DNA from: Bacteroidales bacterium
Lineage (GTDB): Bacteria > Bacteroidota > Bacteroidia > Bacteroidales > UBA932
Assembly (NCBI GenBank): GCA_017553405.1
Contig: JAFZME010000068.1
Location: forward strand, 1-46,852
Reading direction: 5' to 3'
DNA: 46,852 bases
Part shown: positions 21,821 to 46,440 of the stretch, piece by piece
How the letters are laid out: each line of letters opens with the position of its first letter
Position numbering within the stretch: the first letter of the stretch is position 1
Notes under the pieces: model-generated
Seen by the model: the letters and a program-made list of their open reading frames with translations, nothing else
Database searches by the model: none
Told to the model about the DNA's origin: nothing
Made by a program: the position numbers and the translations under genes

Positions 21821-21856
21821 GAGGTTAAGTCGATTCGAGTTCTAATAGAAATTTAT

Positions 21857-24613: not shown

Positions 24614-25978
24614 ATGGCAGAAACTGAAATGAAAAAAGCCCAGGCCGTCGAGCAGTCGGCAGCCGGAGCACCTGAGAAAGAAGCTCCCAAAAAAGAACTC
24701 CTTTCCTCATTCGGCGGATTCAACGCCGTCCGTGGCTTTATGCCCGATGCCGACAATATGAATCCTGCCCGCAAGGCCCAGAAGAACGTCTTCCTCACCG
24801 ACAAGCGTTTCCAGGACAAGCGCGAGAGCCTCGCCCGCGACATCAAGGGATGGCTCGAACTCCTCGACCAGCCCGAACTTGACAGCGCGACCGCTTTCGC
24901 CGACGCCTGCAAGAAAAAGGAAGATGAAGGCACCAAGCTTCTCAAGCAGGGCATCACCGACGCCCTCTACGCGACTCAGAACCTCGAGCGCAGCTACCGT
25001 GAGCTCGACTCCTTCTTCAAGACCTGCGGCACCGACAAGGTCAAGAACCTCCGCGTCATCAACGTCCTCAAGGAAGACATCGCCGATCCCGACTCCGGCT
25101 TCGCTGAGGAGGTGGAGAACATCCTCCGCAACGGTTTCGACCGCCTCAGCCTCAAGGATGCCTACAGCCTCGTCTGCGTCCCCGGCGCCGTGTTCAACGA
25201 CAAGGTGGACCTCCTGAAGTGGGCCAAGATGGCGTTCAAGTACAAAGTGATGCTCCTCACCGACCACGCCGACGAGTATTCCTTCGACGACCTCCAGGCC
25301 AACACCGAAGGCTACCGCGACAGCGACCAGGAGCTTATGAACGTCGTAATGTGCGCCAACTGGATTGTCGGCCGCGAAGCCGAGAAGCTCTCCGCCGACG
25401 AGGAAGACGCCAAGGCGTTCTTCATCGCTCCTTCGGCAGCCCTCTGCGGCAAGCTCTATGACGAGACCGCCAATATGGCCCAGGGCGCCGGCGGCAAGAA
25501 GTACGGTACCCTCGACGGAGTCAAAGGCGTCAAATCCGACCTCCTCAAGTCCGAAATCGCCGCCCTTATGGACAACCAGGTCATCCCTATGGTCTACAGC
25601 GAAGGCCGCGTGATGGCGTTCAACAACACCACCCTCTATAACGGCGACCTCGACGCAATGAAGGAATATCCTATCGTCCGCGTCTTCGACTGGGTCAAGA
25701 AGGTGCTTATGAACTACGTCCACGAGGTGGCTCTTGAGAACTGGGATCCCTACAACTCCCCGAAGAACCTCAAGGCCAAGATCCAGGAGTTCCTCAATAT
25801 GTACAAGGGCTATGGCAACCTCTTCCAGAACTACGAAATCGGCGAGCCCCGTCAGGATCCCGTGACCAAGCAGATCACCTGCGACATCACCCTCACTCCT
25901 TTCTACGCAGCCAAGAACTTCGTAATCAAGGTCGCCGCCGACAAGAAGGACAAGGAAGCCTCCCTCGCCGGTGCGTAA
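24614..25978 (+). CDS. tssC: TssC, large sheath subunit
   Basis: A 454-residue sheath protein of the TssC/VipB family, near the family's usual 450-500 residues. It has a charged N-terminal extension rich in Ala/Glu/Lys (1-35), the helical FLTDKRFQDKRESL segment, the core with RVINVLKEDIADPDSGF and FDRLSLKDAYSLVCVPGA, and a C-terminal part with LYNGDLDAMKEYPIVRVFDWVKK and DITLTPFYAAKNFVIKVAAD, where the sheath handshake strands end. Those are quoted in pieces of under 20 residues or so to show the type. It directly follows tssB. Together the products form the contractile outer sheath that drives the TssD tube. Confidence 0.92.
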   Translation: MAETEMKKAQAVEQSAAGAPEKEAPKKELLSSFGGFNAVRGFMPDADNMNPARKAQKNVFLTDKRFQDKRESLARDIKGWLELLDQPELDSATAFADACKKKEDEGTKLLKQGITDALYATQNLERSYRELDSFFKTCGTDKVKNLRVINVLKEDIADPDSGFAEEVENILRNGFDRLSLKDAYSLVCVPGAVFNDKVDLLKWAKMAFKYKVMLLTDHADEYSFDDLQANTEGYRDSDQELMNVVMCANWIVGREAEKLSADEEDAKAFFIAPSAALCGKLYDETANMAQGAGGKKYGTLDGVKGVKSDLLKSEIAALMDNQVIPMVYSEGRVMAFNNTTLYNGDLDAMKEYPIVRVFDWVKKVLMNYVHEVALENWDPYNSPKNLKAKIQEFLNMYKGYGNLFQNYEIGEPRQDPVTKQITCDITLTPFYAAKNFVIKVAADKKDKEASLAGA

Positions 25979-30700: not shown

Positions 30701-31590
30701 CTTTCCTGAAGCATATGTTTGAAGAGGCGCCGGATAAAAAAGATCAAGTCCGGACGAAAGTTGCGGCATATTTCAATAAACGTGACAAGTTCAGATTCCA
30801 TCCGTCAATAGGACGGTTCGGGACAAGGGATTTCTTCCTGAAAGTCGTGAATGTTATGAATAATGTTGTCGCAGTAAAGGCCAAAGGTGCGAAATTAGAA
30901 CATATTCTTGATGGTCTTCCTGACGAGTATGATGCGTTTGACATCCCGTCAAATGCTCCAAGTATTCTGAAAAAAGCCGCTTCAATTAAGTCGGCTCCGG
31001 GCGCAGCTCCGGCCCCGGCCAATCAGGAGTTCTATGCGGCATATGTGAAGAAAATTGCGGATTATGCAAGAACTCCGGATCGTGCACTTTTCAGTAATGA
31101 TATTCATTCGGCGGATTTTGCCGAATGGAAAAAATTCACCAAGCGTCGCCTCGCCCATTACATTATAGAGAAATGCCGAGTGAATGACATTATTGAGGGT
31201 TGTAAAATTCCTCCTGCTGTTTACGGTAATGTAAGTACGGTCGCTGCTGACGGCACGGTAACTATTACCAGTTCTAAACCTAACGATAATGCTGATCCGG
31301 TCTCCGATGCCGACTGGCCCAAGTTTGTGGCCGGAATCCAGATCAAGGACAATTTCGTCAGCGATTTTGTAAACGGGCTTATGGATACGGGCAATTTACA
31401 GATAATGAAAAAGGTCCTTCCGCTGGAATGGTGGGTGTGGAAGCCTGAGTCGAAAGGCCGGATCCTTATTTCTGACGAGGCCAACAGGACGATACGTTTC
31501 AATAACGGTGTTACTGAGAGCTACAAGAATCAGGATCGGCTGGCCCCCTCCGATGAAGAATCACGTTTACATAGATTACTAAACTTCTGA
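27787..31590 (+). CDS. vgrG: TssI/VgrG spike with internal insertions and long C-terminal extension
   Basis: The 1267-residue spike protein is far longer than a minimal VgrG of 600-700 residues. The gp27-like part contains NESFYDFMRRIANRCGEAFY (about 218-237). The gp5-like OB domain starts at YVIEVDDPYHQGRVRIRYPW (about 544-563) and resumes at GDEVMVDYENGNIDRPFV (about 663). A charged helical insert of about 70 residues (566-635) splits the OB fold, and another insert lies in the gp27 region (about 290-440). The beta-helix DVKIDALTGITLDAPNGDIN begins near residue 777. A mostly helical extension of about 440 residues (830-1267), encoded by visibly more AT-rich DNA, follows; I cannot assign it. 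It may be an effector or a scaffold for the next gene product. Confidence 0.9.
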   Translation: MAVTPPLETYDNNILEYSLELGGTGFKHKDDNDKEVDGCPPIVTGERTKVTYKDISDDLLLSLYGVTFRRKIYEPGRIQAELQIQTKSELGIAKLSDMLVGRSVSLHIEKNSSGRKTIAKNYFILDISPQFENGTDNTYKYIYIKLNIVSKDALLKFNRFSQAHLGEKFFSDTVTNFTSAAGVPIRAFDKSSFQGLTYKDNNTDVEYIQPYFVQYNESFYDFMRRIANRCGEAFYFEDGTLCFGLPKNGNTTDVVNALRVIYRSVSDGPYSCKGITVSDYARDSLKELRDDNTYKPDKKDVITDKIGVVADGKFPNDVFSDGDYTHNSEIASEDHYMILFKDKFAHDSSDELWLGDQDARITLAVSAFLNSTSLLEAIGNLTEQQIDAAYALIAKAKKVTDAGNTKVEDERLDSNKDYAVLFAKVDDNTSHWITLNYYKDIRKYEEEQARNMVCIDMGERYCDVKLGDKITIPGDDDSTYIVTDIEMTSGVPWKRRYDEFSGDAVPVGGAQSQRFYAIPLTKDSKFYPPLLTDKPFLSAGPQPAYVIEVDDPYHQGRVRIRYPWQSLSSSDKNSAAYKAKSEMDTKETELKKYATVTTNHMKVTITKKSDAKEDDFNKAEKEYNEKRDAWLKAVVMEAASPWIRMATPMATNGGGMFFRPEVGDEVMVDYENGNIDRPFVTGALYSKNVPAPMRGNHVIVSKNGHTIKMDDPDDTSLIVQSIFPFIKMLGTFGVEFKGIKGQSLAALGGIELTDKAGIYDIKMSSHDRRIKISSPLGDVKIDALTGITLDAPNGDINITGKNINLSAYNKFNITSGKNILLGSGDHLGGFWDSFNKRSVGSQVSKSLLKMSLMKFFDFSLIRTVLEIFVRPIDGSLAVKSYRYMQLEAGKGSTADEPAKYASRPMDNLLIKKSKADNTRVITELVGECARKVEAFVTEYCTAFNALKAAFDAFPDETFGDGNPLERPTSRDTFLKHMFEEAPDKKDQVRTKVAAYFNKRDKFRFHPSIGRFGTRDFFLKVVNVMNNVVAVKAKGAKLEHILDGLPDEYDAFDIPSNAPSILKKAASIKSAPGAAPAPANQEFYAAYVKKIADYARTPDRALFSNDIHSADFAEWKKFTKRRLAHYIIEKCRVNDIIEGCKIPPAVYGNVSTVAADGTVTITSSKPNDNADPVSDADWPKFVAGIQIKDNFVSDFVNGLMDTGNLQIMKKVLPLEWWVWKPESKGRILISDEANRTIRFNNGVTESYKNQDRLAPSDEESRLHRLLNF

Positions 31591-33388: not shown

Positions 33389-33392
33389 CGTT

Positions 33393-33782
33393 ATGGGAAA
33401 GTTCGTTTGTGCAGGCGCACTGCTCAAGTGCAGTTTCGGAATGGCTCCGTCGTCGTTTATGGTGATTGACCCGATGCGTGCGAAGGTTCAGAACAAGCCC
33501 ATCGGTAACATAATGGACAACAAGCCGATGGCCAACATAATGCCTTTCGGGATGTGCCAGTCTATGGCTAACCCCACCGTGGCTTCGGCCACCGCGGCGG
33601 CTATGGGCGTCCTAACCCCGATGCCCTGCATCCCGGTGATCGCGGCGCCGTGGTTCCCCGGCGGCAAGGAAATGATATCCAATATGCCCGCACTGCTTGA
33701 CAACTGCAAGTGTATGTGCAACTGGGGAGGCAGCATACAGGTGACTATGCCGGGCAACGTCTGTCTTGCGGAAGGAAAATAG
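33393..33782 (+). CDS. DUF4280 PAAR-like spike tip protein
   Basis: The 129-residue protein has the pattern of the DUF4280 family of PAAR-like proteins. The N-terminal VCAGALLKCSFGMAP is followed by NIMPFGMCQSMANP, GVLTPMPCIPVIAAPW and CKCMCNWGG, with spaced cysteines (CAG, KCSFG, GMCQS, PCIP, CKCMC) that may bind metal at the tip. PAAR proteins sharpen the VgrG spike and may attach effectors. The ATG 4 bases after the preceding stop is chosen, as it gives the family N-terminus; an upstream in-frame extension would only read the shadow of the neighbouring gene. It is encoded between the beta-helical protein and the PEGA protein. Confidence 0.9.
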   Translation: MGKFVCAGALLKCSFGMAPSSFMVIDPMRAKVQNKPIGNIMDNKPMANIMPFGMCQSMANPTVASATAAAMGVLTPMPCIPVIAAPWFPGGKEMISNMPALLDNCKCMCNWGGSIQVTMPGNVCLAEGK

Positions 33783-35114: not shown

Positions 35115-35803
35115 AAACCAGTGTCATCAAACTTCTGGACGGCGCTCAGAACAAGATGAGCGGATATGTCGCTCTTCTCAACTATCGCTATTCCAATCTT
35201 AGCGTCAACGCACAGCCGGAAGCTCTTCTCTGCGTGTTCGTCGATATCGACGGAGTGCAGCATCCGATTGAGAAGGTCGCCAAAGGCAGAAACCCGGATG
35301 ACCGTCAGGACCAGTTCGAGATCTATCCCAACAGTCTGGATTTGCTCAAGCCTGTTGTCAAGGCGATTCATAATATGCATCCTGAGTACAAAATCGAGAT
35401 CAAGGATATCGAGGAGGGGGAAGAAGAGAAGTACATCCTCGTTACGATGCCTCCGGTCGATGATGCCCGCTATAAGTTCCTGACCGAAGCCGTGGGCGTT
35501 CTCGCCGATGTCTGTAACGGTCAACTTGAGGCGGTTTTCAACAAGACTGTCGCTGAGATAGGAATCACGCTCGCCGGCGCCTCGGAAGATGAAATCAAGG
35601 AGGCGAAGGATATGTTGCAGGATGTCCACGACAAGGCTGACAAGCTTGCAAAGCAGATTCGCGGCGACAAGGAGAAGGAGATAGAGGATGCCCACGATGC
35701 CTACAAGGCGAAGCAGGAGGAGAAGAAGGCCGAGATGGAGAAGAAGATGCAGGAGGCCAAGGCCGGCACGGAGATGAAGATGTCGGCGCCGGGAGATGAA
35801 TAG
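35111..35803 (+). CDS. Ribosome-recycling-factor-like protein of the injection locus
   Basis: The 230-residue protein aligns by eye over residues 1-195 with bacterial RRF: an N-terminal helix (AQNKMSGYV), a beta/alpha domain with VDIDGVQHPIEKVA (44-57), SLDLLKPVVKAI (75-86) and ILVTMPPVDDARYKFLTEAV (109-128), then the long helix pair with SEDEIKEAKDMLQDVHDKAD (158-177) and GDKEKEIEDA. The arginine-rich helix that carries the invariant Arg132 of RRF is here QLEAVFNKTVAEIG, without arginine, so ribosome recycling is unlikely. A charged tail (195-230) is added. It overlaps the PEGA gene by 4 bases and the E1-like gene by 8. A purely helical unrelated protein remains possible, but the order of motifs argues against it. 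Confidence 0.7.
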   Translation: MKTSVIKLLDGAQNKMSGYVALLNYRYSNLSVNAQPEALLCVFVDIDGVQHPIEKVAKGRNPDDRQDQFEIYPNSLDLLKPVVKAIHNMHPEYKIEIKDIEEGEEEKYILVTMPPVDDARYKFLTEAVGVLADVCNGQLEAVFNKTVAEIGITLAGASEDEIKEAKDMLQDVHDKADKLAKQIRGDKEKEIEDAHDAYKAKQEEKKAEMEKKMQEAKAGTEMKMSAPGDE

Positions 35804-36917
35804 TCCCTTTCGGCAGGACAGGATCGCCGCCGCGAGGATAATGGTGGTGGGGTGCGGCGCTCTGGGCAACGAGGTCCTGAAGAACCTCGCGCTTATGGGA
35901 GCGGAGCACCTGACGCTGGTCGATTTCGACCGCGTGGAGGCGGGCAACCTGAGCCGTTCAATCCTCTTTACGAGGGAGGATGAAGGAAAATATAAAGTTG
36001 ATGCGGCAGCCGCGAGGCTCCTGCAGATCAACCCACGGATGTCTGTCGGGACTGTCCGCGGAGACATAGCTTTCGATGTGGGCCTCGGCCTCGTGCGGAA
36101 GATGGACGTGGTGATGGGATGTGTGGACAACCGTTGGGCGCGCTACTGCATCAACCGGCTCTGCCTGAGGGCCGGCATCCCGTGGGTCGACGGAGGCATC
36201 GGCCTGCTGGAAGGCACGGTGAGGGTTTTCGCCCCCGGTGAGAACTGCTACGCCTGCCAGATGGGCCCCGAGGGGCTGAAGGAACTCAAGCGGCGTATGC
36301 CCTGTTCGGGCATCATCCGCCGCAACGAGGAGGCGGGGAAGGCTCCGACGACTTCCGTCATCGCTTCGGTGATAGGGGCCGTCGAGGTGCAGGAAGCGCT
36401 TAAGCTTCTTCACCCGGAGCTGCTTTCGGGCGGAGAGCTGACTTCCCTCTGCGGGCGGATGTTCTGCTACGAAGGAGAGCATCTGACGACAAGGGTGGCC
36501 GGTCTCAAGGCCTGGGACGAGGATTGTCCCGTCCACGAGAGATGGGAGCCCGTCGTGAAGACGGCGGTCCGTCTTGATATGACGGCAGAGCAGGCGCTTG
36601 CCGTCCTGAAGGAGGAGACGTCCTCCGCGAAGGTGAAGATCTTCCTGACCGGAGACTGTTTTGTGGACAGGGTGGTCAGAAAGGACAATGATGCGGCAAG
36701 GGAGGTGATGCTTCCCGGTCGGAAAGTGGCGGAAAGTCTGGCGCAGGATGCTGACTGGGGAGGGATCCCCTTCAGCGGACTCTACCAGCACGAGTACAGG
36801 GAAATAGACGATGATTTTCCCTACAAGTCCCTCACGCTGGGACAGATAGGGATTCCCGCGCAGGAGGTGCTGCTTGTCGGCACCGATGCCGGAGAAATAT
36901 ATATGGAAATGGAATGA
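35796..36917 (+). CDS. E1-like ubiquitin-activating enzyme (ThiF/MoeB/UBA superfamily)
   Basis: The 373-residue protein has the E1/ThiF Rossmann core that adenylates a ubiquitin-like C-terminus. The nucleotide loop is GCGALG (19-24), then LVDFDRVEAGNLSRS (41-55) with D43, N51 and R54, the catalytic lysine candidate K67 and D111 in GCVDN. A zinc-type pair C151xxC154 matches MoeB's CxxC; its partner is C244-P-V-H247 rather than CxxC. C170 in MPCSG before the crossover loop is the candidate thioester cysteine. The last 120 residues (about 253-373) are an added domain ending SLTLGQIGIPAQEVLLV, perhaps a ubiquitin-fold domain for E2 recruitment. It overlaps both neighbours, the RRF-like gene and tssG. 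A thiamine or molybdopterin role is unlikely given the E2 and Ubl in the same operon. Confidence 0.9.
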   Translation: MNSPFRQDRIAAARIMVVGCGALGNEVLKNLALMGAEHLTLVDFDRVEAGNLSRSILFTREDEGKYKVDAAAARLLQINPRMSVGTVRGDIAFDVGLGLVRKMDVVMGCVDNRWARYCINRLCLRAGIPWVDGGIGLLEGTVRVFAPGENCYACQMGPEGLKELKRRMPCSGIIRRNEEAGKAPTTSVIASVIGAVEVQEALKLLHPELLSGGELTSLCGRMFCYEGEHLTTRVAGLKAWDEDCPVHERWEPVVKTAVRLDMTAEQALAVLKEETSSAKVKIFLTGDCFVDRVVRKDNDAAREVMLPGRKVAESLAQDADWGGIPFSGLYQHEYREIDDDFPYKSLTLGQIGIPAQEVLLVGTDAGEIYMEME

Positions 36918-37696
36918 CAAAGATTTCGCAAATACCGGAAATCGGGGCCGAGATGCTGCTCAACCGCCTCTATCCCGAGCTGCAGGACCGGTGGACAGCC
37001 CATCACGACGGGACTTTCTACCGCAACTACAGCAGGGATGTGATGGAGATCGATCCGTCTCTGGAGACGGTGTGGCTGTCGAGGGACGGATTCCTCGAAC
37101 TGCTTCCCCAGGGGCTCCTGTCGAAGGAGGACGAGTTCAAGACCGGCGACGTGCAGGAAAAGCACAAGGAGCTTGACCTGCAGATGAGGATCCTTTCGGA
37201 GGCGTTCCTCCCGCTGGATTCCATCTTGTTCCGCAGCCGTCTCCGCCTGGAAAGCAGCGTTTCCGACCTGCTTTCCGACAAGCTCGCCCTCATTCTCAAG
37301 GAATATTTCGGCTACGACATCGACGCGGAGACGAATCCCTATGTGAAGGAATTCGCGCTCATACTTCCTTATGTGAGGCACTGGAGAGGCGATCTCAATC
37401 TTATCAAGGGCCTGCTTTCTTCCATCTTCCACTGTGAGGTGGAGCTCACTGTCAGGCGCTACAGCGAGAGTGACAGCACGCGCTGCTGGCTGCCTGCCAT
37501 ACGTTTTGAACTGCTCATCCCCGATCTTACCGGAGAGGACTACAGGGCCCTCCACAAGGACCTTCAGCCCCTCGCCGATTTTATCTCGGAGTGGTTCATC
37601 CCCGCAGAGTCCAGGCTGGAACTTCTTGTGAAACACCGTTCCGCCGGCTCTCTCCTCGACACCGATATGATACTTGACTATAACACAGAGATATAA
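36914..37696 (+). CDS. tssG: TssG-like baseplate protein
   Basis: A 260-residue protein with no signal peptide in the position expected for TssG among the baseplate genes. Typical segments are FLELLPQGLLSKEDEF (about 57-72), LFGYDIDAETNPYVKEF-like text written here EYFGYDIDAETNPYVKEF (about 132-149), and CWLPAIRFELLIPDLTGEDY (about 193-212). Near the end comes the TssG-like alpha/beta domain with LQPLADFISEWFIPAESRL. TssG joins TssF and TssK in the wedge complex of the baseplate. Sequence similarity to TssG by eye is moderate. The overlap of 4 bases with the E1-like gene and the 1-base gap to tssK support co-expression with both. Confidence 0.7.
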   Translation: MTKISQIPEIGAEMLLNRLYPELQDRWTAHHDGTFYRNYSRDVMEIDPSLETVWLSRDGFLELLPQGLLSKEDEFKTGDVQEKHKELDLQMRILSEAFLPLDSILFRSRLRLESSVSDLLSDKLALILKEYFGYDIDAETNPYVKEFALILPYVRHWRGDLNLIKGLLSSIFHCEVELTVRRYSESDSTRCWLPAIRFELLIPDLTGEDYRALHKDLQPLADFISEWFIPAESRLELLVKHRSAGSLLDTDMILDYNTEI

Positions 37697-37697
37697 T

Positions 37698-38837
37698 ATG
37701 GACATCGATGCAAGAATAAATTGGACGCCCGGAATGGAGCTCTCCGCACAGACTTTCAGGGAACTCGACCGGAATCTGGACTACCGTCAGCAGGTCGCCG
37801 TGCGCGCCGCGCTTGGCGGGATGCGTTTCGGGCTTCTGCCGGGTGCGGAATTCAATGTCGCCGGCGTGTTCGTGAAGAACACCTACGAGATCGAGAATTT
37901 CAAGTGCCTGGCCGTCCTTCCGTCGGGAAGGCTCCTTGGCGCCGACGAGAGCGTGGTCGTTCCGATTCCTATGCTTTTCGGGGAGGAGTATTACCTCACC
38001 GTCGCCATCAGCGACGAAGAAAAGGTCTTCGAGAAGGAGAACGTCCCGTATGTGAGATACCAGAAGGTCTTCGCCATCCACACCCTTGAAGAACTGGGCA
38101 AGGACGACCTGTTCCCCGTGTCGCGTTTCAAGGTCGCGGACGGCGTGTTCTCGATAGACGCGGACTATATCCCGCCCTGCCTCCTTCTCGACACGGATCC
38201 CCGCATCGCCGGGTTCGGCGCGGCCTACATCGAGAGGCTGCAGGCCATCAGCTCCCACGCCAATCTCGAAGAAGGCGAGGGCAAGAGGGCTATTCTCCGC
38301 TACCTGTTCCTCCTCAAGGGCTATCAGTGGGACGGCGGCGTCCGCGAATTCGTCCAGCTCACGCAGGAGATAGCGCAGGCGATTGACTACTATATCGTCA
38401 GCCCCCACACCGACAAGCCTGTCGAGGTGCCGGTCCCTTCGTTCTACGACATCCGCAAGTGGCTGCAGTGGTTTTCCGACTACCTGGCCGGAGCCGTCAG
38501 CATCCTCGACACGGTCGTGCTGGAAGACAACAGCATCGATTACGAGGCCCTGCTCGCGCAGGCCAAGGCCGAGCTGTATGAGAAGCTCAACCCGGAGCTT
38601 CGCGCCGACCTGCTCCTCCAGATCAAGGACGAGCTTCGTTTCGAGCTCACCGAGCACCTTTCGGCCTCGCTGATGAATTTCATCAACGAGAAACTTAAGC
38701 CGGGCCTTCACGACAGCCTGTCGTCCGAACTCAGCCCCGCCCTGCACGACAAGCTCTATGAAGAGCTCTACGAGCAGCTCTACAATGCCCTGTATGTTCC
38801 TTCGCAGGAGGAAGAAGATTATTGTCCGTTGATCTAG
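37698..38837 (+). CDS. tssK: TssK-like baseplate subunit
   Basis: A 379-residue protein that begins MDIDARINWTPGMELSAQTF, a good match to TssK's N-terminal shell domain motif (W-x-x-G-M-x-L-x-x-Q-x-F). It continues with LDRNLDYRQQVAVRAALGG. In type VI systems TssK links the baseplate to the membrane complex and recognises effectors. The C-terminal part (about 290-379) differs from the family, with a repetitive, Leu/Glu-rich helix (LYEKLNPELRADLLLQ, LKPGLHDSLSSELSPALHDK) that could be an oligomerisation stalk. The ATG after the tssG stop is chosen, with a gap of 1 base; an upstream TTG within tssG is ignored. A membrane-contact function is inferred from the family. Confidence 0.85.
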   Translation: MDIDARINWTPGMELSAQTFRELDRNLDYRQQVAVRAALGGMRFGLLPGAEFNVAGVFVKNTYEIENFKCLAVLPSGRLLGADESVVVPIPMLFGEEYYLTVAISDEEKVFEKENVPYVRYQKVFAIHTLEELGKDDLFPVSRFKVADGVFSIDADYIPPCLLLDTDPRIAGFGAAYIERLQAISSHANLEEGEGKRAILRYLFLLKGYQWDGGVREFVQLTQEIAQAIDYYIVSPHTDKPVEVPVPSFYDIRKWLQWFSDYLAGAVSILDTVVLEDNSIDYEALLAQAKAELYEKLNPELRADLLLQIKDELRFELTEHLSASLMNFINEKLKPGLHDSLSSELSPALHDKLYEELYEQLYNALYVPSQEEEDYCPLI

Positions 38838-38843
38838 TCAGGT

Positions 38844-39302
38844 ATGGGAAGCATTTCTATTCCGCTCCGTATAGAGAAAGGCCGTCTGCTCAGGGTTGAG
38901 AGCGAGAAGGAATCTGTCGACAGGTCCCTGGCCCTCCTGATGTCCACTCCCTGCCGGAGCACGGTCTCGGATCCGGACTATGGATTCGTGTTCAACAATA
39001 TGCGCTTCGAGATCTTCAACGAGAACGAAGGCGTGGTGTACGATTCCGCCCCCGGAAGGGACGGTTTCGAGGCGCTCAGCGGACTCTACGACAAGAAGAT
39101 TTCCGGCACGTCCAACAACCTCAAGACCTTTTCTGCCGACCTGAAAGCGGCCATAGAGAGCTATGAGAAGCGTTTGAAAAGGGTGTCGGTGGGTATGAAC
39201 TACGTCCGTCAGGAGAGGAAGATCCACATATCCGTCAAGGGCAAGCTCGCATCCACGGGAGAGTCCTACCAGTATTTATCCGTCATCAATGTTTGGAAGT
39301 AA
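38844..39302 (+). CDS. tssE: TssE / gp25-like baseplate protein
   Basis: A 152-residue protein of the gp25 lysozyme-like baseplate family, which triggers sheath assembly. Recognised pieces are SVDRSLALLMSTPCRSTVSD (about 24-43), then DYGFVFNNMRFEIFNENEG (about 44-62), near the conserved position of the gp25 glutamate loop, and the C-terminal KIHISVKGKL followed by the beta strand SYQYLSVINVWK. It is 6 bases after tssK and 6 before tssF. Its length is normal for the family. No signal peptide, so it is cytoplasmic. Confidence 0.9.
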   Translation: MGSISIPLRIEKGRLLRVESEKESVDRSLALLMSTPCRSTVSDPDYGFVFNNMRFEIFNENEGVVYDSAPGRDGFEALSGLYDKKISGTSNNLKTFSADLKAAIESYEKRLKRVSVGMNYVRQERKIHISVKGKLASTGESYQYLSVINVWK

Positions 39303-39308
39303 GCGTTT

Positions 39309-41015
39309 ATGAAACAGATATTATTTGAAACCCGTCAGAAAGCTGAGGAACTGCTGAAAGAAGCCCAGGCCGTATGGCACCAGAGCGACAGGTCGGACGA
39401 CCTTGAGAATCTGGGCGACGACCCGGTGTTCTCGATGCTGCTTACGGCCCTGGCCTACCAGTCCAACGAGTTCGACAGCGAGATAGAGCGCTTGAAATCG
39501 GAGGTCCTGGAGGATTTTGCACGTCTGCTGGTGCCCTACACGGCCGCACACGCGGTCCCGGCAACGGCGGTCGTCGAGACTTCCCTTCAGGATGGCGTGG
39601 ACGAGCTCCCGGTAGGGGAGGACACCACCTTTATGCTCGCAGGCCAGCACCCCTTTATGCCGCTTATGGAAACGAGGGCGCTCGGTGTGGAGATCCGTTC
39701 GATTTCAAGGCTGGACGGACGCAGGTGGAAGGTCTCGCTCCATTTCAAGAACCAGGTAAGCGACCTTTCCCACTTCTCCTTCGCCGTCAAGGGGCTCAAC
39801 TTCAAGGACCTGTCAGTGTCCATAAAAGGCCAGTTGCTGCCGCTTGTCAAACCCTGGCATTATGCCAACCTTCCGCTCGTGCCGTGCTTCTCGCCGGAGT
39901 CCCTGACCTACAACGCCGGCCAGATCTGCAGCGTGTCGGTGCTCCCGATGGATCTTTTCGCACGGCAGAACGTGCGGATGTTCTTCGTCGACAGGCACAA
40001 TCCCGGCAGTTTCTTCCCGCCCGAGACCGAGAATCTCGACCTTGTCTTTGAATTCTCCGGGATTTTTGACGACTTCCATTTTGATGCGGATAATCTCGCC
40101 CTCAACACCGTGATGCTCGTCAACGCGAAGAAGAACGAGGTCACTATCTCTTCCGAGAATCCCGTTGCAAGGCTCGTCGGCGGACAGAACGACGAGACTG
40201 TGACCGACCTTTCCTCCAGGGAGTTCCTCCATCTGGTCAGACCTGCCGATGCCCAGATATTCGGCGATATGGCGCTGGAGGTGAGGGGAGTCGCGGGCGA
40301 CCGCTTCAACCAGGGGAGCCTGGTGAGGCTGCTCAACTGCATCGTCACGAAGTATCGTTCCGATTTCTACGCCTTCCAGCAGCTCAGGGGCGTGAGCACC
40401 GACACCGCCATATTCCAGCTCGAATCGGCCCTGGCCGAGCTGAAAAAAGACAGCAACAGGGATGTGCTCCGCAATGTGTCGGGCGTCTACCTGATGCCGC
40501 GCGGCTCCGTGAAGCAGCTTAAGGAATTCAGCCTGGAGGTTAACTACCTGACCACGGCCGGTGCGTCAGTCAATTCACTCCTGAGCACGCCCTGCAGTTT
40601 CAGCGCCCCGTCGGGATTCTCTTCCGATATCAGGCTCGTCGGCCAGCCGATGCTTGGCAGCGACGAGATAAAGGATGAGGCGGCTCTCGGCGAATTGATG
40701 CGCTATTATCTCCTGACCGGCGACCGTGTCGTCACTATGGCCGATATGAAAGCATTTTGCGCAATGGAACTGAAGGTGAGATATGGCATCGAAGACAAAC
40801 TGATACGGCGTATGTCCGTCCACAAGCGCCTCGAAAGGGAGGAAGGGGGATGCGGCTATGAGATAGTCGTCGACATCTGCCTCGTCGCCAATTCCTTCAT
40901 CAAGCGCAGTTTCACGGAAAAACTCCCGATGGCGGAGCTTCTCCTCCGGAAGATGCTCGAGGTCAGGAACGCCGGCATCTATCCTATTAAGGTGAATATC
41001 ACAATTGAAGAATAA
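39309..41015 (+). CDS. tssF: TssF baseplate protein
   Basis: A 568-residue protein of the TssF/VasA family (gp6-like), the largest wedge component of the baseplate. Typical features are the N-terminal helix with DPVFSMLLTALAYQSNEFDS (about 41-60), the EDFARLLVPYTAAHAVPATA block (about 68-87), and the central beta-rich domain with LTYNAGQICSVSVLPMDLF. Its C-terminus has the DRVVTMADMKAFCAMEL element and the closing GIYPIKVNITIEE. The stop codon is 1 base before the start of the ubiquitin-like gene, so the two are very likely translationally coupled. That places the modifier gene inside the baseplate operon. Confidence 0.92.
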   Translation: MKQILFETRQKAEELLKEAQAVWHQSDRSDDLENLGDDPVFSMLLTALAYQSNEFDSEIERLKSEVLEDFARLLVPYTAAHAVPATAVVETSLQDGVDELPVGEDTTFMLAGQHPFMPLMETRALGVEIRSISRLDGRRWKVSLHFKNQVSDLSHFSFAVKGLNFKDLSVSIKGQLLPLVKPWHYANLPLVPCFSPESLTYNAGQICSVSVLPMDLFARQNVRMFFVDRHNPGSFFPPETENLDLVFEFSGIFDDFHFDADNLALNTVMLVNAKKNEVTISSENPVARLVGGQNDETVTDLSSREFLHLVRPADAQIFGDMALEVRGVAGDRFNQGSLVRLLNCIVTKYRSDFYAFQQLRGVSTDTAIFQLESALAELKKDSNRDVLRNVSGVYLMPRGSVKQLKEFSLEVNYLTTAGASVNSLLSTPCSFSAPSGFSSDIRLVGQPMLGSDEIKDEAALGELMRYYLLTGDRVVTMADMKAFCAMELKVRYGIEDKLIRRMSVHKRLEREEGGCGYEIVVDICLVANSFIKRSFTEKLPMAELLLRKMLEVRNAGIYPIKVNITIEE

Positions 41016-41016
41016 T

Positions 41017-41334
41017 ATGGAAGATTTCTTTCTGGATTTAGTCTACAAGAACAAGAAGGTCCGCTTCAGGGTGGTGAACCCTGAAGCACCGATTGGCACG
41101 CTGATGAGCAATCTGCGTCACGCGATAGGCAGTGACGGACGTCTCATCTTCGACTTCCCGTCCATCGACGAGACCGGCGCCCCTCTGGACTACTTCTTCG
41201 GAGTCGAGGACCCTCAGGTCCACGAAATCCGGGTTTTGCGCCCTAGAATCGGACGCGCCGACCAGACGCTGGCGGACTACAATGTCCACAGCGGCGACAC
41301 TTTGTTCCTCGTCCCCGATCCGTTCCCGGGTTAA
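41017..41334 (+). CDS. Ubiquitin-like modifier protein
   Basis: A 105-residue beta-grasp protein. It opens with a beta-hairpin (FFLDLVYKNKKVRFRVVNP) and a helix (TLMSNLRHAIG). The end QTLADYNVHSGDTLFLV (83-99) resembles ubiquitin's TLSDYNIQKESTLHLV so closely that the fold is evident. The last residue is Gly105 in VPDPFPG, so the mature C-terminus is already exposed with a single glycine instead of Gly-Gly. The ATG one base after the tssF stop is used; a TTG four codons upstream is less likely. It precedes the E2 gene by 3 bases, and an E1-like gene lies five genes upstream. ThiS or MoaD is an alternative, but their Gly-Gly tail and context are missing. Confidence 0.88.
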   Translation: MEDFFLDLVYKNKKVRFRVVNPEAPIGTLMSNLRHAIGSDGRLIFDFPSIDETGAPLDYFFGVEDPQVHEIRVLRPRIGRADQTLADYNVHSGDTLFLVPDPFPG

Positions 41335-41337
41335 TGT

Positions 41338-41919
41338 ATGCGTAGCTGCGAATTCATACCCGAAGAGCTGAGCGGGCGCAACAGGCGTCTGCTCAACGAG
41401 TGGCGTACGCTGGAAGACCGTTTCGGCGCACGGGAAGACATTGTCGTCTCAGTGGCCGAGAGCAATGCGGCAGGCCTTCCGGTCCGCTATCGGGTGGAAT
41501 ATCGCATCCGCAGCATCTGCGGGGTTGAGCAGGTGGACAGGCTGGGGGAGCCCGGAGTGAATAACCCTCCTCTTTTCGCCGACCGTTTCGTGATGGAAAT
41601 CGTGCTTCCGGTCAACTATCCCTGTGTGGACGGCGCCCCGGTGTTCAGTTTCCTCACGGCGGATGAAAATGGCGCTCCGATTCCTCACCCGTGGCATCCC
41701 AACATCCGCTATTTCGGCGCTATGGCCGGAAGGGTGTGTCTCAACAGGGACGACACCTACACCGATCTGGCCTGGGGCGTGGGAAGGGTGGCGAGCTACC
41801 TCACCTACGAGCGCTACCACGCGGTGTCGGAGCCTCCCTATCCGGAGGATATGCAGGTGGCCGCCTGGGTAATCCGTCAGGGAGAGCCCAATGAATGGAT
41901 TTATTTTGAACAAGACTGA
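41338..41919 (+). CDS. E2-like ubiquitin-conjugating enzyme
   Basis: The 193-residue protein has the E2/UBC fold. A beta-sheet segment RFVMEIVLPVNYPCVDGAP (83-101) matches the E2 meander with its conserved proline. The H120-P121-N122 motif follows, and then the catalytic cysteine C134 in GRVCLN, corresponding to HPN-x(n)-G-x-[VI]-C-L of eukaryotic E2s. The segment between HPN and Cys is 11 residues, longer than the usual 7, with GAMAG as the extra part. A helical N-terminus of about 30 residues and the C-terminal YLTYERYH helix complete it. It should take the modifier from the E1-like protein onto C134. It stands 3 bases after the Ubl gene and 3 before the next gene. Confidence 0.92.
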   Translation: MRSCEFIPEELSGRNRRLLNEWRTLEDRFGAREDIVVSVAESNAAGLPVRYRVEYRIRSICGVEQVDRLGEPGVNNPPLFADRFVMEIVLPVNYPCVDGAPVFSFLTADENGAPIPHPWHPNIRYFGAMAGRVCLNRDDTYTDLAWGVGRVASYLTYERYHAVSEPPYPEDMQVAAWVIRQGEPNEWIYFEQD

Positions 41920-41922
41920 CAT

Positions 41923-43065
41923 ATGTATAGACTGCGAATATTTCTTCTCTGGATGACAGGCTTGCTGGCCGCGACGGCCCTGCAGGCCCAGACTGTCAGG
42001 AACGTTTCCGTCAGTGCCGGAGAGTCGTACACCGACCACATCTCCCTTTCGGAAGATTCCCGTGATATGGACGTGATGGTCAAACTCGTCTTTGACGAGC
42101 AGAAAAACTCACTGACGGTCAGCGTACTGTCGTACCGGAGCCTCTTTGTCTTCCGCGAGGCGGCGCGCTACCACTCGGTGGTGAAGGGCGGACATCTCCG
42201 CCCGGACCTCCTGCCTTATGTGGCGGAGGCGGACCCCAAGGCTAAATTCGTCCTCTCCAAGGCTCTCAAGAAGTCCATCCACAAGAAAAAGAAGTACGTT
42301 TTCAACCGCTGGATTGAATATGACGGACTTCAGCCGTCTCCCTCGTCCTACAAGATGGTCAACGACTACATCGAGCAGGCATTCGACATTCAGGGCCAGC
42401 GCGGTGTCGTCACCGTCACGCTGCGTGATATATTCCTCCTGGAGCCCTCCGCGAAGAATCCCAAGCTCTTCACGCTTATGCAGGGGCGTGACCTTAATAT
42501 GAAATATCAGATCCGGATCCTCCGCAATCCTTGTTTCGGGCTCGATGACGAGCTGGCCGCGACCGCCAAGCTCTGCACCGATGCAAAGACCGCCTGGGAC
42601 GGTTTCAAGAAAAACTACGGCAGCGGGGAAGTCGCCAGCGAGGATGCGTTGAACACGTTCAAGCAGACCAAGACCGTGCTCCTTACGCAGTTCCCCCGCA
42701 AGAAGGAGCGCACCTCCTGCCCCGACATTCTCGCCTACATAGGTCAGTACAACAATTATGTGGATTCGATTGAGGCGCTCACCTGCAAGGTCGCTGTCCA
42801 GGAGCAGCCCTGGGACGATGGCAAACCGCTGGATGTCAAGCTGATATACTCGCAGGCACGCCAGATCGACAAGTCGGTCGCGCGTTATCTCGTAAGCAAG
42901 GATATGCTCGAGCGCTCCGACATACTGGAGCAGTGCAGCGACATCATCGCCGACGTGTCGGGGATGATTCAGAACCATAAGGGCCAGCTGTCTGCCGAGG
43001 AGGCGGAGGCGGTGCGAGTTTACAGGCAGGCCGAGAAATATTTCAATAAAACCTGCAGGCAATAG
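41923..43065 (+). CDS. Periplasmic T6SS-associated protein (TssP/TssO-like candidate)
   Basis: A 380-residue protein with a cleavable signal peptide (LLAATALQAQ) and no further membrane helix. The N-terminal half is beta-rich with TDHISLSEDSRDMDVMVKL (about 37-55), SYRSLFVFREAARYHSVVKG and RWIEYDGLQPSPSSYKMVND; it ends in a strand-rich DIFLLEP. The C-terminal half is helical (CTDAKTAWDGFKKNYG, DKSVARYLVSKDMLERSDIL). I think such proteins are part of the Bacteroidetes type VI membrane/periplasmic set (TssN to TssR), but I cannot say which letter. Its position 3 bases after the E2 gene places a periplasmic protein next to a cytoplasmic enzyme, consistent with one trans-envelope assembly. Confidence 0.72.
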   Translation: MYRLRIFLLWMTGLLAATALQAQTVRNVSVSAGESYTDHISLSEDSRDMDVMVKLVFDEQKNSLTVSVLSYRSLFVFREAARYHSVVKGGHLRPDLLPYVAEADPKAKFVLSKALKKSIHKKKKYVFNRWIEYDGLQPSPSSYKMVNDYIEQAFDIQGQRGVVTVTLRDIFLLEPSAKNPKLFTLMQGRDLNMKYQIRILRNPCFGLDDELAATAKLCTDAKTAWDGFKKNYGSGEVASEDALNTFKQTKTVLLTQFPRKKERTSCPDILAYIGQYNNYVDSIEALTCKVAVQEQPWDDGKPLDVKLIYSQARQIDKSVARYLVSKDMLERSDILEQCSDIIADVSGMIQNHKGQLSAEEAEAVRVYRQAEKYFNKTCRQ

Positions 43066-43068
43066 GCT

Positions 43069-43950
43069 ATGCGACTTTGGAAGGCATATATTCTGGCGGC
43101 AGTCCTGGCGCTTCCCACGGCACTCAGTGCCCAGGAGGCGACCGGAGAAGAGCCTGCCCTCGACGAGAGGACCAGGCTCGAGATCCAGACCAGGCTCGAC
43201 CAGTATCTGGAGGGGATGACCAAGATTCACGATGCGGTCGTGGCCCGGCTTCCCGTATCTCCCGACGCGCAGTTCACGGACGGCTACATCAATGTCCTGA
43301 ACCATCGCCTCAAGGGGATGGAGTCGAACCTGCTCTCGCTCGGCGTCCGCTGGGACAACTACTGCCCGCTCCAGCAATGGGCGATCACCCAGGACGAGGG
43401 GCTTATGGCGAGCGTGGAGAGCTTCGAGCTGATGCGTCAGGAGGCGACCGACTCGATGGCGGTCAGAAAGCAGCAGATACTTTCTCTGCAGGCTTTCATC
43501 GACGCCCAGGCGCTTTTCGAGCGTCTCGACACCGCCTACAACTCGTTGGGCAAGAAGGCATTCTCCCTGTCGCTGACGGAAAAGACCGCTCCGCTTCTTG
43601 AGAAGGAGAAGAAGAAGGAAGCGCTCCTTTTCGCCCAGGTGGACGAGAAGTTCGCCCTGGCCCAGCAGGCCGGACAGGACCACCTCGTCTCGCCGGAAAG
43701 GATGGAGGCGCTGGAGGAGTCGTATGCGGCCCTCAAAAACAAGTCCGACGCCATACAGCAGATGACCTACAAGCCGCTTATCCAAAGGGTGAAGGACTAC
43801 CTTATCGGGCTCGCCGCCGTGGCCGTGCTTCTGATGTTCCTGAGTATGGCTCAGGCCAAGATCAAAGCCGCCAAGGCCGCGCGTGAGAACCTGAAGAAAA
43901 TGAAAGAAACAATGAAACTGAATGGGATGGACGACTATCCTACCATTTAA
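43069..43950 (+). CDS. Periplasmic coiled-coil protein with C-terminal membrane anchor
   Basis: A 293-residue protein with a signal peptide (ALPTALSAQ), a long helical, Glu/Gln-rich periplasmic region (about 25-240) and one transmembrane helix near residues 243-261 (YLIGLAAVAVLLMFLSM). A basic cytoplasmic tail follows (QAKIKAAKAARENLKKMK). If the signal peptide is cleaved, the body sits in the periplasm and the tail reaches the cytoplasm. It may be the Bacteroidetes-type TssO or another member of the set that replaces TssJLM. It lies 3 bases after the previous gene and 14 before the large vWA/RING membrane protein, so it probably acts with them. Confidence 0.7.
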   Translation: MRLWKAYILAAVLALPTALSAQEATGEEPALDERTRLEIQTRLDQYLEGMTKIHDAVVARLPVSPDAQFTDGYINVLNHRLKGMESNLLSLGVRWDNYCPLQQWAITQDEGLMASVESFELMRQEATDSMAVRKQQILSLQAFIDAQALFERLDTAYNSLGKKAFSLSLTEKTAPLLEKEKKKEALLFAQVDEKFALAQQAGQDHLVSPERMEALEESYAALKNKSDAIQQMTYKPLIQRVKDYLIGLAAVAVLLMFLSMAQAKIKAAKAARENLKKMKETMKLNGMDDYPTI

Positions 43951-43964
43951 AAGAGCAGAAGCGT

Positions 43965-46361
43965 ATGATAAAGATGAAGAATACCCTCCGCTGCTTGTTC
44001 ACGGCCGTCGCGGCATTGTCCGTGGCCGCCTGCCAGTCGGATATGCTGTCGCACCTCGGTGTCGACAATCCTTCCGGCTTCTTTGACGCCACAAGTGCGT
44101 TCGATGACAGCGCCGCCCAGCTGAGGCAGGACAAGATGGTGGCGAAGAAAGTGGAATTCTCCCCTGACCACAAGACGTTCTCCGTCTGGACGAGCGTGGT
44201 CAGCGACATCGGTCCCTATTCACTCACCGATTCCACCACCGTCCGGATCGACCTGGAGGAATACGACGACGGCGTCAAGGCCGCCCGCAGAGTCTACCCG
44301 AAGCTTGTCAAGGCTGTCAACACGGAGGGCGACCAGATAGCCGAGCTCGGGATAAAGACGCTCGTGCTGGTGGACCTGTCCCTGTCCCAGGAGCTGATAG
44401 ATGCCGAGAGGGACGCGCTCGAGGAACTCTCCACTGTATTCAACCACGAGAACCTGTATGTGGCATTTATGTCCGGTTCCGGTGTCTCGAAGACTCTCCG
44501 TCTGTCGGATTATGTCCTTCAGGAGTACTTCAAGAAGGGGGCTTCCTACACTTATCTTTTCCGGTCCATATGCACGAAACTGCGTGAGTACGAGAAGAAT
44601 ACCGGCCCTCTTGCCGATTCCGGCCCCATTAAGCTGGTCATTTTCACCAACGGCAAGGTCTACGCTGACAGCGAGACGCCTATCGACCCCGACCATTTCA
44701 AGATGGAGAGCGAAATGCTCCATTCGGAGACTTTCAAGAGCGATTCGCTGGACATTTTCTGCGTCAACTGGGGGAGCAGGAGCGGCGATGGCGACGAGGT
44801 CGACGCGACCAATGTGCTGACGTCTCTCTGCGAGAGTTCAGGAGGTATTTATCTTCCCAAGTTCAATATGACCGAGCTGGAGGCGGCTATGCTCGGGGAG
44901 GAGGGGAAACTCATCGCTTCCAACCGTTTCGATTTCGTCAATCCCGACGGTAAGGTCTACAGGGGTGACAACAACCAGCTCAAGATAATCTTCACCAGCA
45001 TCAAGGACAACCACAAGATCTGTTCGGTCACGGCCAGCGTCCGTGAAGGCTCTCTCTATAAGCCCATTATCGTAAACGGCGACTCCATCGGTGAGGTCAT
45101 CATAGAGGGTGTCAGCGTCGGGCTGCTCATAATGCTGGTGATCTACCTTGTCTTCCAGTTCCTTGTACCGTACATCAGGTACAGGATTTTCCTCAAGAAA
45201 TATGTCGTCCGTCACACGGGCAGGGATATGGTGATAGGGGACAAGGCGGTTGCCGAGTCGTGCTACCTCTGCAAGGCTCCATTCAAGGAAGGAGAAGAGG
45301 TGGTCGTGAAGTGCGAACACACGATGCACAAGTCGTGCTGGGACGAGAACGAATACCATTGTCCCGAATATGGCCGCCACTGCGCGCACGGCTCCCATTT
45401 CTACGACAAGGAGCACCTTTTCGACAGGCGCAACGCCCCGTACTATCTCAACTGGCTTTTGCTTGCCGTCATCGTCTCGGTCCTGGCGTGGATAGCATTC
45501 ATCGTCTGCTCCAACTTCACCTCCAAGCACATCCTGGAATATATCCTTCCGGTCGAGCATCTCGCGATGCGGGACACCAGCACGCATCTCAACCAGCTTC
45601 CCAACTATGGCAACATAGTGGCCTTCTTCCTGACCTTCGGCATCGCCTGCGTGGCGTTCCGCAGGAAGTCCGCGCTGACCTGGCTCGGGATCATCCTGCG
45701 CGCCTCCGTCGCAGGCATCGTGTCGGCTCTTCTCTACCTGCTTGTCAGCGTGGCCTGCATAGCCCTCCACCTGGAGTCGGTCAGCTTCTTCATCAACCTC
45801 ATTCCGTGGATACTGTCCAGCTTCCTCATCGCATTCGCTTCGACCTACGGTACCCGTATCAAGCTCAAGAAGTCGATAGTGCTCATCGCCGTCGCCGCTT
45901 CTCTGGTGTCGATGTACCTGTGGTCGTCGTGCTACCTGATGATAGGCGTGGACTTCCGTGTGCTGCTGCTGTTCAGCATAATGATCTATGCAGTCGGCCT
46001 CGTGCTTTCCATAGCGTCGGCCGCGCCGAAGTCGGAGCATTTCTTCCTCAATGCCAGGGGAGCCGTGAAGACTATGGACATCGCGCTCTACAAGTGGTTC
46101 CGTGCCAATCCAGGCGCGGTGGTCACTATCGGCCGCTCGGTCGACTGCTCACTGCAGCTGTCGTGGGACCTTCAGGGCCAGGTGGCTCCCGTCCACGCCG
46201 AGATCACGATGAAAAAGGGAGTCCCGCGTCTTGTCGCCCTTGAGGATGGAGTCCTCTTCTCCGGCAAGCCGCTTAAGGTCGACAAGCCCAAGATCCTCCA
46301 TCACGGCACCACCTTCCAAATCGGCCGCACCGTCTTCACCTACCAGGAGAAGGATATCTAG
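43965..46361 (+). CDS. vWA-RING-multi-TM-FHA membrane protein (candidate E3 and TssR/TssN-like)
   Basis: A 798-residue protein with a lipobox (SVAAC, Cys23) and a vWA-like domain carrying the MIDAS motif DLSLS at 137-141. A first membrane helix lies near 383-405. A RING-H2-like site follows: C433-x2-C436-x13-C450-x-H452-x2-H455-x2-C458-x7-C466, then C473 or a His as the last ligand. About six further membrane helices run from residue 493 to 700. The FHA-like domain (about 710-798) has IGRSVDCSLQL, APVHAEI and a final FQIGRTVF, but lacks the usual Ser and Asn of the phosphothreonine pocket. Topology puts the vWA part in the periplasm and RING and FHA in the cytoplasm. The combination suggests a TssR-like plus TssN-like fusion acting as a membrane E3 ligase. 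Confidence 0.85.
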   Translation: MIKMKNTLRCLFTAVAALSVAACQSDMLSHLGVDNPSGFFDATSAFDDSAAQLRQDKMVAKKVEFSPDHKTFSVWTSVVSDIGPYSLTDSTTVRIDLEEYDDGVKAARRVYPKLVKAVNTEGDQIAELGIKTLVLVDLSLSQELIDAERDALEELSTVFNHENLYVAFMSGSGVSKTLRLSDYVLQEYFKKGASYTYLFRSICTKLREYEKNTGPLADSGPIKLVIFTNGKVYADSETPIDPDHFKMESEMLHSETFKSDSLDIFCVNWGSRSGDGDEVDATNVLTSLCESSGGIYLPKFNMTELEAAMLGEEGKLIASNRFDFVNPDGKVYRGDNNQLKIIFTSIKDNHKICSVTASVREGSLYKPIIVNGDSIGEVIIEGVSVGLLIMLVIYLVFQFLVPYIRYRIFLKKYVVRHTGRDMVIGDKAVAESCYLCKAPFKEGEEVVVKCEHTMHKSCWDENEYHCPEYGRHCAHGSHFYDKEHLFDRRNAPYYLNWLLLAVIVSVLAWIAFIVCSNFTSKHILEYILPVEHLAMRDTSTHLNQLPNYGNIVAFFLTFGIACVAFRRKSALTWLGIILRASVAGIVSALLYLLVSVACIALHLESVSFFINLIPWILSSFLIAFASTYGTRIKLKKSIVLIAVAASLVSMYLWSSCYLMIGVDFRVLLLFSIMIYAVGLVLSIASAAPKSEHFFLNARGAVKTMDIALYKWFRANPGAVVTIGRSVDCSLQLSWDLQGQVAPVHAEITMKKGVPRLVALEDGVLFSGKPLKVDKPKILHHGTTFQIGRTVFTYQEKDI

Positions 46362-46423: not shown

Positions 46424-46440
46424 TCGACCTTGGACCCCAG

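Follow-up and report, generated by a model that had tools for sequence, protein, structure and literature searches.

A predicted ubiquitin-like conjugation cascade encoded within a T6SS-type injection operon of Bacteroidales

Why should the genes of a ubiquitin-like conjugation cascade lie among the baseplate genes of a contractile injection machine? The question is raised by a stretch of 46,852 bases from a Bacteroidales bacterium (contig JAFZME010000068.1; hereafter the window), which is one whole contig of a 2.25-Mb assembly in 177 contigs. On its + strand runs a type VI secretion system (T6SS)-type cluster, from the start of the ClpV gene at 21770 to the end of a membrane protein gene at 46361, which includes genes for an E1-like activating enzyme, a ubiquitin-like protein (Ubl), an E2-like enzyme and a membrane protein with a RING-like site. 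An earlier note on this DNA had claimed these genes as members of a single operon; the genes, order, spacing and residue numbers that it gave are correct, with gaps of 1-14 bases or short overlaps across 35111-46361, and the presence of Ubl, E1, E2 and RING genes within a T6SS-type operon is confirmed. The four proteins very probably form a working cascade that serves the T6SS. We would put at about even the chance that this dedicated cascade conjugates the Ubl, at the inner membrane, to one of the components of the injection machine, so licensing baseplate docking or assembly. The genes concerned, from E1 to the RING protein, are these:

35796..36917, + strand: E1-like activating enzyme, 373 aa (Pfam ThiF 1.7e-51 over residues 7-246, plus a C-terminal extension)
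36914-37696, + strand: TssG-like baseplate protein (family hidden Markov model, HMM, matches a gene in three TssN-type loci, L095, L096 and L098, at 1.7e-16 to 5.7e-21)
37680-38837, + strand: TssK baseplate-membrane adaptor (TIGR03353 1.8e-8, below cut-off; T6SS_VasE 0.006; alternative open TTG start at 37674)
38844-39302, + strand: TssE, gp25-like (GPW_gp25 2.4e-11)
39309-41015, + strand: TssF baseplate protein (family HMM matches TssF of TssN-type loci, best 1.9e-24; TssF tree)
41017-41334, + strand: predicted ubiquitin-like protein (Ubl), 105 aa, C-terminus DPFPG without a tail (AlphaFold2 (AF2) model, fold matches, PG end)
41338-41919, + strand: E2-like enzyme, 193 aa, with H120-P121-N122 and C134 (AF2 model, E2 fold matches, invariant residues)
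41923-43065, + strand: P380, 380 aa, predicted exported protein with a signal-peptide-like N-terminus by eye (no Pfam match)
43069-43950, + strand: P293, 293 aa, predicted exported, one C-terminal transmembrane (TM) segment at 245-263 (hydropathy; position)
43965-46361, + strand: predicted membrane vWA-RING-FHA protein, 798 aa, hereafter the RING protein (FHA 3.6e-7, zf-RING_2 8.5e-4, hydropathy, alignment to distant homologues)

This arrangement recurs well beyond the window. A single GTDB genome scan with the E2 returned 116 stretches holding an E2 relative, and 80 of them (L007-L086) were kept; by their titles, these near loci belong to rumen and gut Bacteroidales, including Prevotella, Xylanibacter, Alistipes, Bacteroides, Parabacteroides, Paludibacteraceae, Millionella and others. 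Gene order is kept in 80/80, which is therefore not a matter of chance; picked by their E2, the loci are informative on order and not on obligate presence. Counted in loci long enough, the neighbours are the Ubl (80/80), TssF (79/79), TssE (77/77), TssK (76/76), P380 (76/76), P293 (75/75), TssG (74/74), E1 (74/74) and the RING protein (69/69). The fixed order, together with the finding of E1, Ubl and E2 in 13/13 cascade loci of a TssF-based search described below, upholds the claim that the cascade is part of the unit and not inserted cargo. Within the ten-gene block the Ubl is the slowest-changing protein, with a median identity to the window of 0.79, followed by E2 (0.61), E1 (0.59), TssK (0.53), TssE (0.50), TssF (0.47), TssG (0.44), P380 (0.42), the RING protein (0.39) and P293 (0.33).

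Among the cascade proteins, Pfam is firm only for E1 and for the FHA domain; the remaining matches lie below cut-off (E2 to UQ_con at 0.035, Ubl at 0.03-0.05, RING to zf-RING_2 and, at 0.006, to Prok-RING_1). Because these sequence matches are weak, the folds of E2 and Ubl were settled by structure models. The AF2 model of E2 (pLDDT 87, pTM 0.84) has 74 Foldseek matches at E<=0.001, and all those listed (50/74) are E2s or E2-containing complexes, judged by their titles; across 16 diverse rows, four of them distant forms (G046, G178, G242, G016), neither C134 nor H120-P121-N122 varies. The Ubl model (pLDDT 87, pTM 0.74) consists of one beta-grasp domain with ubiquitin-fold matches, and two Foldseek matches reach E<=0.001. 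Models and fold matches thus agree with the UBC and beta-grasp folds predicted earlier for the 193- and 105-residue proteins. Every Ubl of the window's type (81/81 sequences) ends in "-PG", with the Gly as the very last residue. In the window's Ubl no export signal is seen by eye. The YukD family (PF08817) matches the window's Ubl at 0.045 and three relatives at 1.3e-5 to 1.3e-3, all below cut-off.

Five residues of E1 are each at least 95% conserved (75 sequences): C151, C154, C244 and H247 are likely to form a zinc site, and C170 is a candidate for the catalytic, thioester-forming Cys; the motif around C170 is found in 73/75 near and 12/12 distant E1s. The best solved relative (PDB) of E1 is SUMO E1 subunit 2 (5.4e-25), ahead of MoeB (3.1e-21), and its top NCBIfam matches are ThiF/MoeB models, all far under their cut-offs. 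Among PADLOC models it matches CBASS E1-E2 (2.5e-18) and BilD (2.8e-8); none of these models matches E2 or the RING protein, and the Ubl matches only an unrelated one, at 0.068. No JAB peptidase was found in the window and the 80 near loci (own profile) or in the window's genome (PF01398). Conserved lysines were considered as pointers to a target and gave no basis for choosing; several are at least 90% conserved (TssE K84/K85, TssK K202/K296, TssF K481, TssG K123, P293 K181/K242, RING protein K437/K702/K710 and others).

The RING protein begins with a lipoprotein-like signal (by eye) and a vWA region, followed by one TM segment, the RING (433-473), six TM segments and the FHA domain (720-787). 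The eight zinc ligands (C433, C436, C450, H452, H455, C458, C466, C473) are all at least 95% conserved in 76 sequences. The vWA label comes from aligning the protein to distant homologues; Pfam recognises vWA in three of them. By hydropathy, the succession of one TM segment, RING, six TM segments and FHA is shared by the window, G046 and G178 proteins; the G016 and G358 homologues align over their full length but have one TM segment fewer at the same threshold, and G358 is without the zinc ligands. From this layout, RING and FHA are predicted to face the cytosol and the vWA part the periplasm. The best NCBIfam relative of the protein is the T6SS FHA protein TagH (4.4e-6). Equating its vWA region with that of TssR was rejected, as no signal was found. 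P293 occupies the operon slot held by a JAB protein in related T6SS loci; that it might be such a protein stripped of its JAB domain was also discarded, for the slot is the same, yet homology is not detectable.

How might such a cascade act? In the scheme that we propose, E1 would adenylate the Ubl at Gly105 and take it onto Cys170, the Ubl would pass to Cys134 of E2, and the cytosolic RING of the membrane protein would act as the likely E3. As the RING is predicted to lie on the cytosolic side of a membrane protein, modification would take place at the meeting point of baseplate and membrane, and the Ubl target would be a subunit of the baseplate or of the membrane complex. The known T6SS of subtype iii (T6SSiii) have a TssK/TssN contact there; the TssN/O/P/R set is undetected here. 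In the window's clade, in which no JAB isopeptidase was found, the mark may be long-lived, whereas its removal could be possible in relatives that keep JAB intact. The observed basis comprises the genes and their order, the folds of the models, the conservation of catalytic and zinc residues, the terminal Gly and the distribution described below; the steps beyond are what we infer, and for the target and the effect (the licensing of docking or assembly) we rate the chance somewhat below even.

The missing set deserves comment. According to passages of Bongiovanni et al. 2024 (PMC10781749), all of 443 T6SSiii have the TssNQOPR membrane complex, whole or in part, tssN lies between tssK and tssG, TssN binds TssK, and TssN includes a ubiquitin-like domain. 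The window shares with T6SSiii the sheath, tube, spike, ClpV and the TssE/F/G/K core, and the same passages place a vWA (TssR D2) and a ubiquitin-like fold (TssN) in T6SSiii too. In contrast, the window is without detectable TssN/O/P/R and has E1, a free Ubl, E2, P380, P293 and the vWA-RING-FHA protein instead. Profiles that were made from the TssN, TssO/Q, TssP and TssR sequences of TssN-type loci, supplemented with Pfam TssN, TssO and TssR, find no match in the window and do match positive controls in TssN-type loci; these are sequence-level profiles, and diverged versions are possible. In cascade loci their sole match is TssP at 0.009 in L119. As the TssNQOPR complex is not detected, we do not file the window as T6SSiii in the sense of PMC10781749, only as a relative.

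Do cascade and TssN then divide the T6SS of these bacteria between them? In a survey of 295 genomes of the order, sampled independently of E2 and including many incomplete assemblies, TssC occurs in 14, E2 in five and both in four (p 1.6e-5 if independent, shared descent being ignored). Six of the 14 TssC genomes have TssN, four have E2, none has both and four have neither, a zero overlap expected by chance 7% of the time. Four of the five E2 genomes thus carry TssC, against 14 of the 295 overall. A TssF profile was also run over 399 genomes from the family to which X. ruminicola D31d belongs; the genome of D31d, on which this search was centred, had been chosen for its cascade and is counted in. 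This gave 34 loci in 32 genomes, all profile-scanned in stretches of about 20 kb and seven of them examined gene by gene: six of the window's type (type A), seven with a second cascade type (type B), 15 of TssN type, four with neither (three, plus one 3-kb contig placed by the TssF tree) and two uncalled. Thus 13 loci have the cascade, 15 have TssN and 0/34 have both (p 2.9e-5 on the same assumption). Since 15 TssN-type and four neither loci of 34 show no E1, E2 or Ubl as far as these stretches reach, the cascade is not universal in Bacteroidota T6SS. Homologous loci devoid of the cascade had been named as what would count against the idea of integration, and in these stretches they exist; on the window's own TssF branch, 0/18 rows lack the cascade, 14 of these rows being E2-chosen or the window itself and four added by the TssF search (two more loci are copies of chosen rows). 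Seven named genomes have a T6SS of type A; six of them are without TssN above cut-off, one of these six with a sub-cut-off match at 9.2e-4. Three T6SS loci (L093, L094, L120) lack both TssN and the Ubl cascade, but show kinase- and FHA-like genes by eye.

The relatives of the module are instructive about its range. Type B loci read, as far as the stretches reach, TssH-TssB-TssC-Hcp-VgrG-Ubl-E2-JAB-vWA/RING/FHA-E1-TssG-K-E-F; their Ubl ends in IAG (7/7), and the JAMM motif is intact in every JAB gene tested. One of them, L132, has a Ser/Thr kinase gene downstream of TssF (Pkinase 3.1e-42), and in L132 (12653-16828) and L134 (3486-7557) PP2C-like phosphatase, kinase-like and muramidase-like genes are seen by eye at the same place, which would bring phosphorylation and Ubl chemistry together within one T6SS. 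The distant forms G046, G178 and G242 have Ubl and E2 in T6SS clusters of different gene orders, so that the module stays with contractile machines despite reshuffling; G046 and G178 also have E1, JAB and the RING protein, and in G242 neither E1 nor the RING protein is found in a stretch that ends about 4 kb past E2. In G016, E1-Ubl-E2-JAB-vWA/RING/FHA adjoins SrfB and TssC is absent. This SrfB-linked Ubl (L092:2783-3067), in an operon with JAB, has four residues after the Gly (IAG-YLVV), whereas the T6SS Ubls examined end at Gly; a tail together with a JAB gene fits a need for processing. Finally, an E1 search at a strict cut-off in one further family of the same class hit 19/298 genomes, at 20 loci. 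Seven have genes of an extracellular contractile injection system (eCIS) nearby (the eCIS sheath gene is 21 kb from E1 in G358 and 44 kb in G452), two have only a PAAR gene, one (G1201) has T6SS genes with a TssN-like gene, and one has only a ClpV/ClpB-type ATPase. Two eCIS-linked vWA-FHA copies (L107:446-2827, L109:424-2772) show a stretch, "DPITQDAF", at the place of the RING zinc ligands, which by eye we take to be U-box-like. At L184:13067-19900 a module copy precedes several consecutive proteins whose N-termini resemble one another (M..I...I..AK type). No contractile genes are seen there, and the cascade perhaps serves a further type of secretion or effector. As relatives adjoin eCIS and SrfB genes, the module is not confined to T6SS, and the earlier framing of it as T6SS-integrated was too narrow.

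The trees are compatible with more than one history. With TssF, type A (18 rows) forms one clade (support 100/100) and type B (7) another (100/98), and A, B and four of five neither rows fall together on one side (100/99); the fifth neither row, G247, and the cascade-bearing G046 fall on the TssN side, with long-branch warnings. With TssC, type A forms a group with G178 and G242 (100/100), type B pairs with G258, a neither row (97/95), and G046 is again on the TssN side. A cascade on both sides of the split is therefore either old, with losses, or gained more than once. We would entertain, tentatively, the idea that Ubl conjugation is an old, built-in control layer of Bacteroidota contractile injection systems, in which one E1-Ubl-E2-(JAB)-vWA/RING/FHA module drives T6SS and eCIS assembly and which TssN-type T6SSiii have mostly lost.

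Several observations weigh against a cascade devoted to assembling these machines. The 80 near loci were picked via their E2. Close T6SS relatives, the four neither rows next to clade B, manage without the cascade. Bacteroides mediterraneensis, the seventh named type A genome, also has TssN on another contig, and in G1201 (L171) a T6SS cluster has a TssN-like gene (2e-7) with the module some 5 kb upstream of it. Strict mutual exclusion of cascade and TssN, as the counts from 34 loci and 14 TssC genomes might have led one to propose, was rejected on account of G1201, and given these two genomes the cascade does not strictly take the place of TssN. Profile comparison of TssN with the Ubl and nine other families of the window's locus gave no homology; the descent of the free Ubl from the ubiquitin-like domain of TssN was accordingly dropped. 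In the other family, 9/20 module loci show nothing contractile in the stretches examined, several being on short contigs, and both eCIS-linked RING-protein homologues tested are without zinc ligands, which means that RING chemistry is not universal.

What else could the cascade do? It might be a post-translational switch that turns firing on and off, coupled to phosphorylation through FHA, and not an assembly or docking step. The RING protein ends in an FHA domain and has TagH as its best NCBIfam relative, which is consistent with this, as are the kinase downstream of TssF in L132 and the PP2C-like and kinase-like genes of L132 and L134. But the search for a kinase partner of the FHA domain failed in the window's genome, which is without a Pkinase match at E<=0.001 when 11/14 control genomes have one (the 80 near loci were not searched for kinases), and slow evolution of the Ubl fits a structural partner equally well; we regard the switch as rather unlikely. 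Ubiquitin-type marks often feed AAA+ unfoldases, and a ClpV gene lies within the cluster, so that the Ubl might mark the sheath or spent tubes for ClpV-driven disassembly and turnover. This seems improbable to us: TssN-type T6SS have ClpV and a sheath but no Ubl system in the stretches examined, and E1, Ubl and E2 are grouped with baseplate genes rather than with tssBC/H.

The location of the E1 and Ubl genes in a secretion operon could also be taken to mean that the Ubl serves as a loading tag on Hcp, VgrG or an effector, or that target cells receive the Ubl itself, and B. fragilis is reported (PMC5705921) to secrete a ubiquitin homologue acting between strains. The lack of an export signal, judged by eye, speaks against this, and the chemistry of RING and E2 would take place inside the cell that makes them. 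Effectors vary between strains, and the conservation of the Ubl is unlike theirs; such a role has little to recommend it. Scarcely more credible, and indeed a shade less so, is an anti-phage or anti-rival conjugation module of the Bil or CBASS kind that merely travels with the T6SS locus. The PADLOC matches of E1 favor it, T6SS baseplates are tail-like, and Bil reportedly modifies phage tail fibres; yet the other cascade proteins gain no pertinent PADLOC match, the genes are interleaved among core genes in an invariant order, and the locus has a single beta-grasp Ubl, separate E1 and E2 and no JAB. Least probable is sulfur transfer or peptide modification of the ThiF/ThiS type in place of conjugation, which the leading NCBIfam matches of E1 might evoke and which is at odds with a separate E2 bearing HPN and Cys, an eight-ligand RING site, JAB in relatives and a SUMO E1 as the best structural relative.

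A cascade that would modify the injection machine can also be set beside bacterial systems already described. It shares ThiF-family E1 chemistry with CBASS Cap2/Cap3. Cap2 is a single fused E1-E2 protein, whereas E1 and E2 of the window are separate genes, and among the matches listed for 22 scanned cluster proteins there is no cGAS-like cyclase or JAB. In type VII secretion, the Ubl of EccD is fused to membrane domains; the window's Ubl differs from YukD and EccD in being free, ending in Gly and having E1 and E2 in the same operon, and we know of no conjugation of YukD or EccD. The Bil operon (BilABCD) has likewise a bacterial cascade of Ubl, E1 and E2. PMC11354881 describes two Ub-like domains in BilA, the processing of BilA by the JAB-family peptidase BilC, and paired adenylation domains in BilD; the window has instead one beta-grasp domain, no JAB found, a 373-aa E1, and in addition the RING protein and the T6SS linkage. 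The closest predicted systems are those of Iyer, Burroughs and Aravind (PMC1779556), operons with Ub-like, E1-like, E2-like and JAB proteins, type 6d being listed also for Bacteroides (Bthe). Passages of that paper make no tie to T6SS or eCIS, and they describe the E2 of operon 6d as lacking the conserved His, whereas the window's E2 keeps HPN. The parts are thus of known families, and for their T6SS linkage we found no earlier report: the matches listed from the open-licence literature, a scope that leaves outside subscription papers including the 2011 prokaryotic RING survey, contain none of an E1/E2/Ubl set in T6SS or eCIS.

The remainder of the cluster, 5' of E1, is made up as follows:

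21770..24091, + strand: TssH/ClpV AAA+ ATPase (Pfam AAA_2 8.9e-58, ClpB_D2-small 1.8e-18)
24123..24587, + strand: TssB sheath small subunit (T6SS_VipA weak, 0.063; own 3-sequence HMM matches TssB adjoining TssC in TssN-type loci)
24614..25978, + strand: TssC sheath (PF17541 2.9e-101)
26012-26404, 26439-26837, 26908-27345 and 27345-27776, + strand: four Hcp/TssD genes (PF17642 4.8e-29, 9.6e-22, 1.3e-8 and weak, 0.0077)
27787..31590, + strand: VgrG/TssI spike, 1267 aa (Phage_base_V 9.5e-18)
33390..33782, + strand: DUF4280 tip protein (PF14107 1.1e-32), presumably PAAR-like
35111-35803, + strand: RRF-like protein with a lysine-rich tail, 5' of E1 (Pfam RRF 9.3e-11)

The core TssB/C/D/E/F/G/H/I/K is therefore all present, TssB, TssK, TssG and TssF through weak or family-level similarity. 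VgrG (27787-31590) has a C-terminal extension of about 450 aa past its DUF2345 match (which ends at 818), with no Pfam match listed there, possibly a built-in effector domain. In 54/80 near loci the RRF-like protein has a counterpart that covers 60% of its length or more, at shifting places and strands, and it is therefore accessory. Just 3' of the operon (46391-46524) a near-palindromic repeat of 32 nt (TCGTATGCAAAACAGCCCGTTTTTGCATACGA type) occurs three times, spaced 51 nt apart; the copies are possibly terminator or repetitive extragenic palindromic (REP)-like hairpins.

At the level of sequence, the locus conflicts with the statement that every Bacteroidota T6SS has TssNQOPR or part of it, and it raises the question of how machines without this complex are anchored. 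The spread of the cascade through gut and rumen Bacteroidales, cultured strains such as X. ruminicola D31d and Mediterranea massiliensis included, makes bacterial Ubl tagging testable by standard T6SS assays. If our proposal is true, these bacteria would have a ubiquitin-type cascade dedicated to building or controlling a secretion nanomachine, and not to phage defence or protein degradation.

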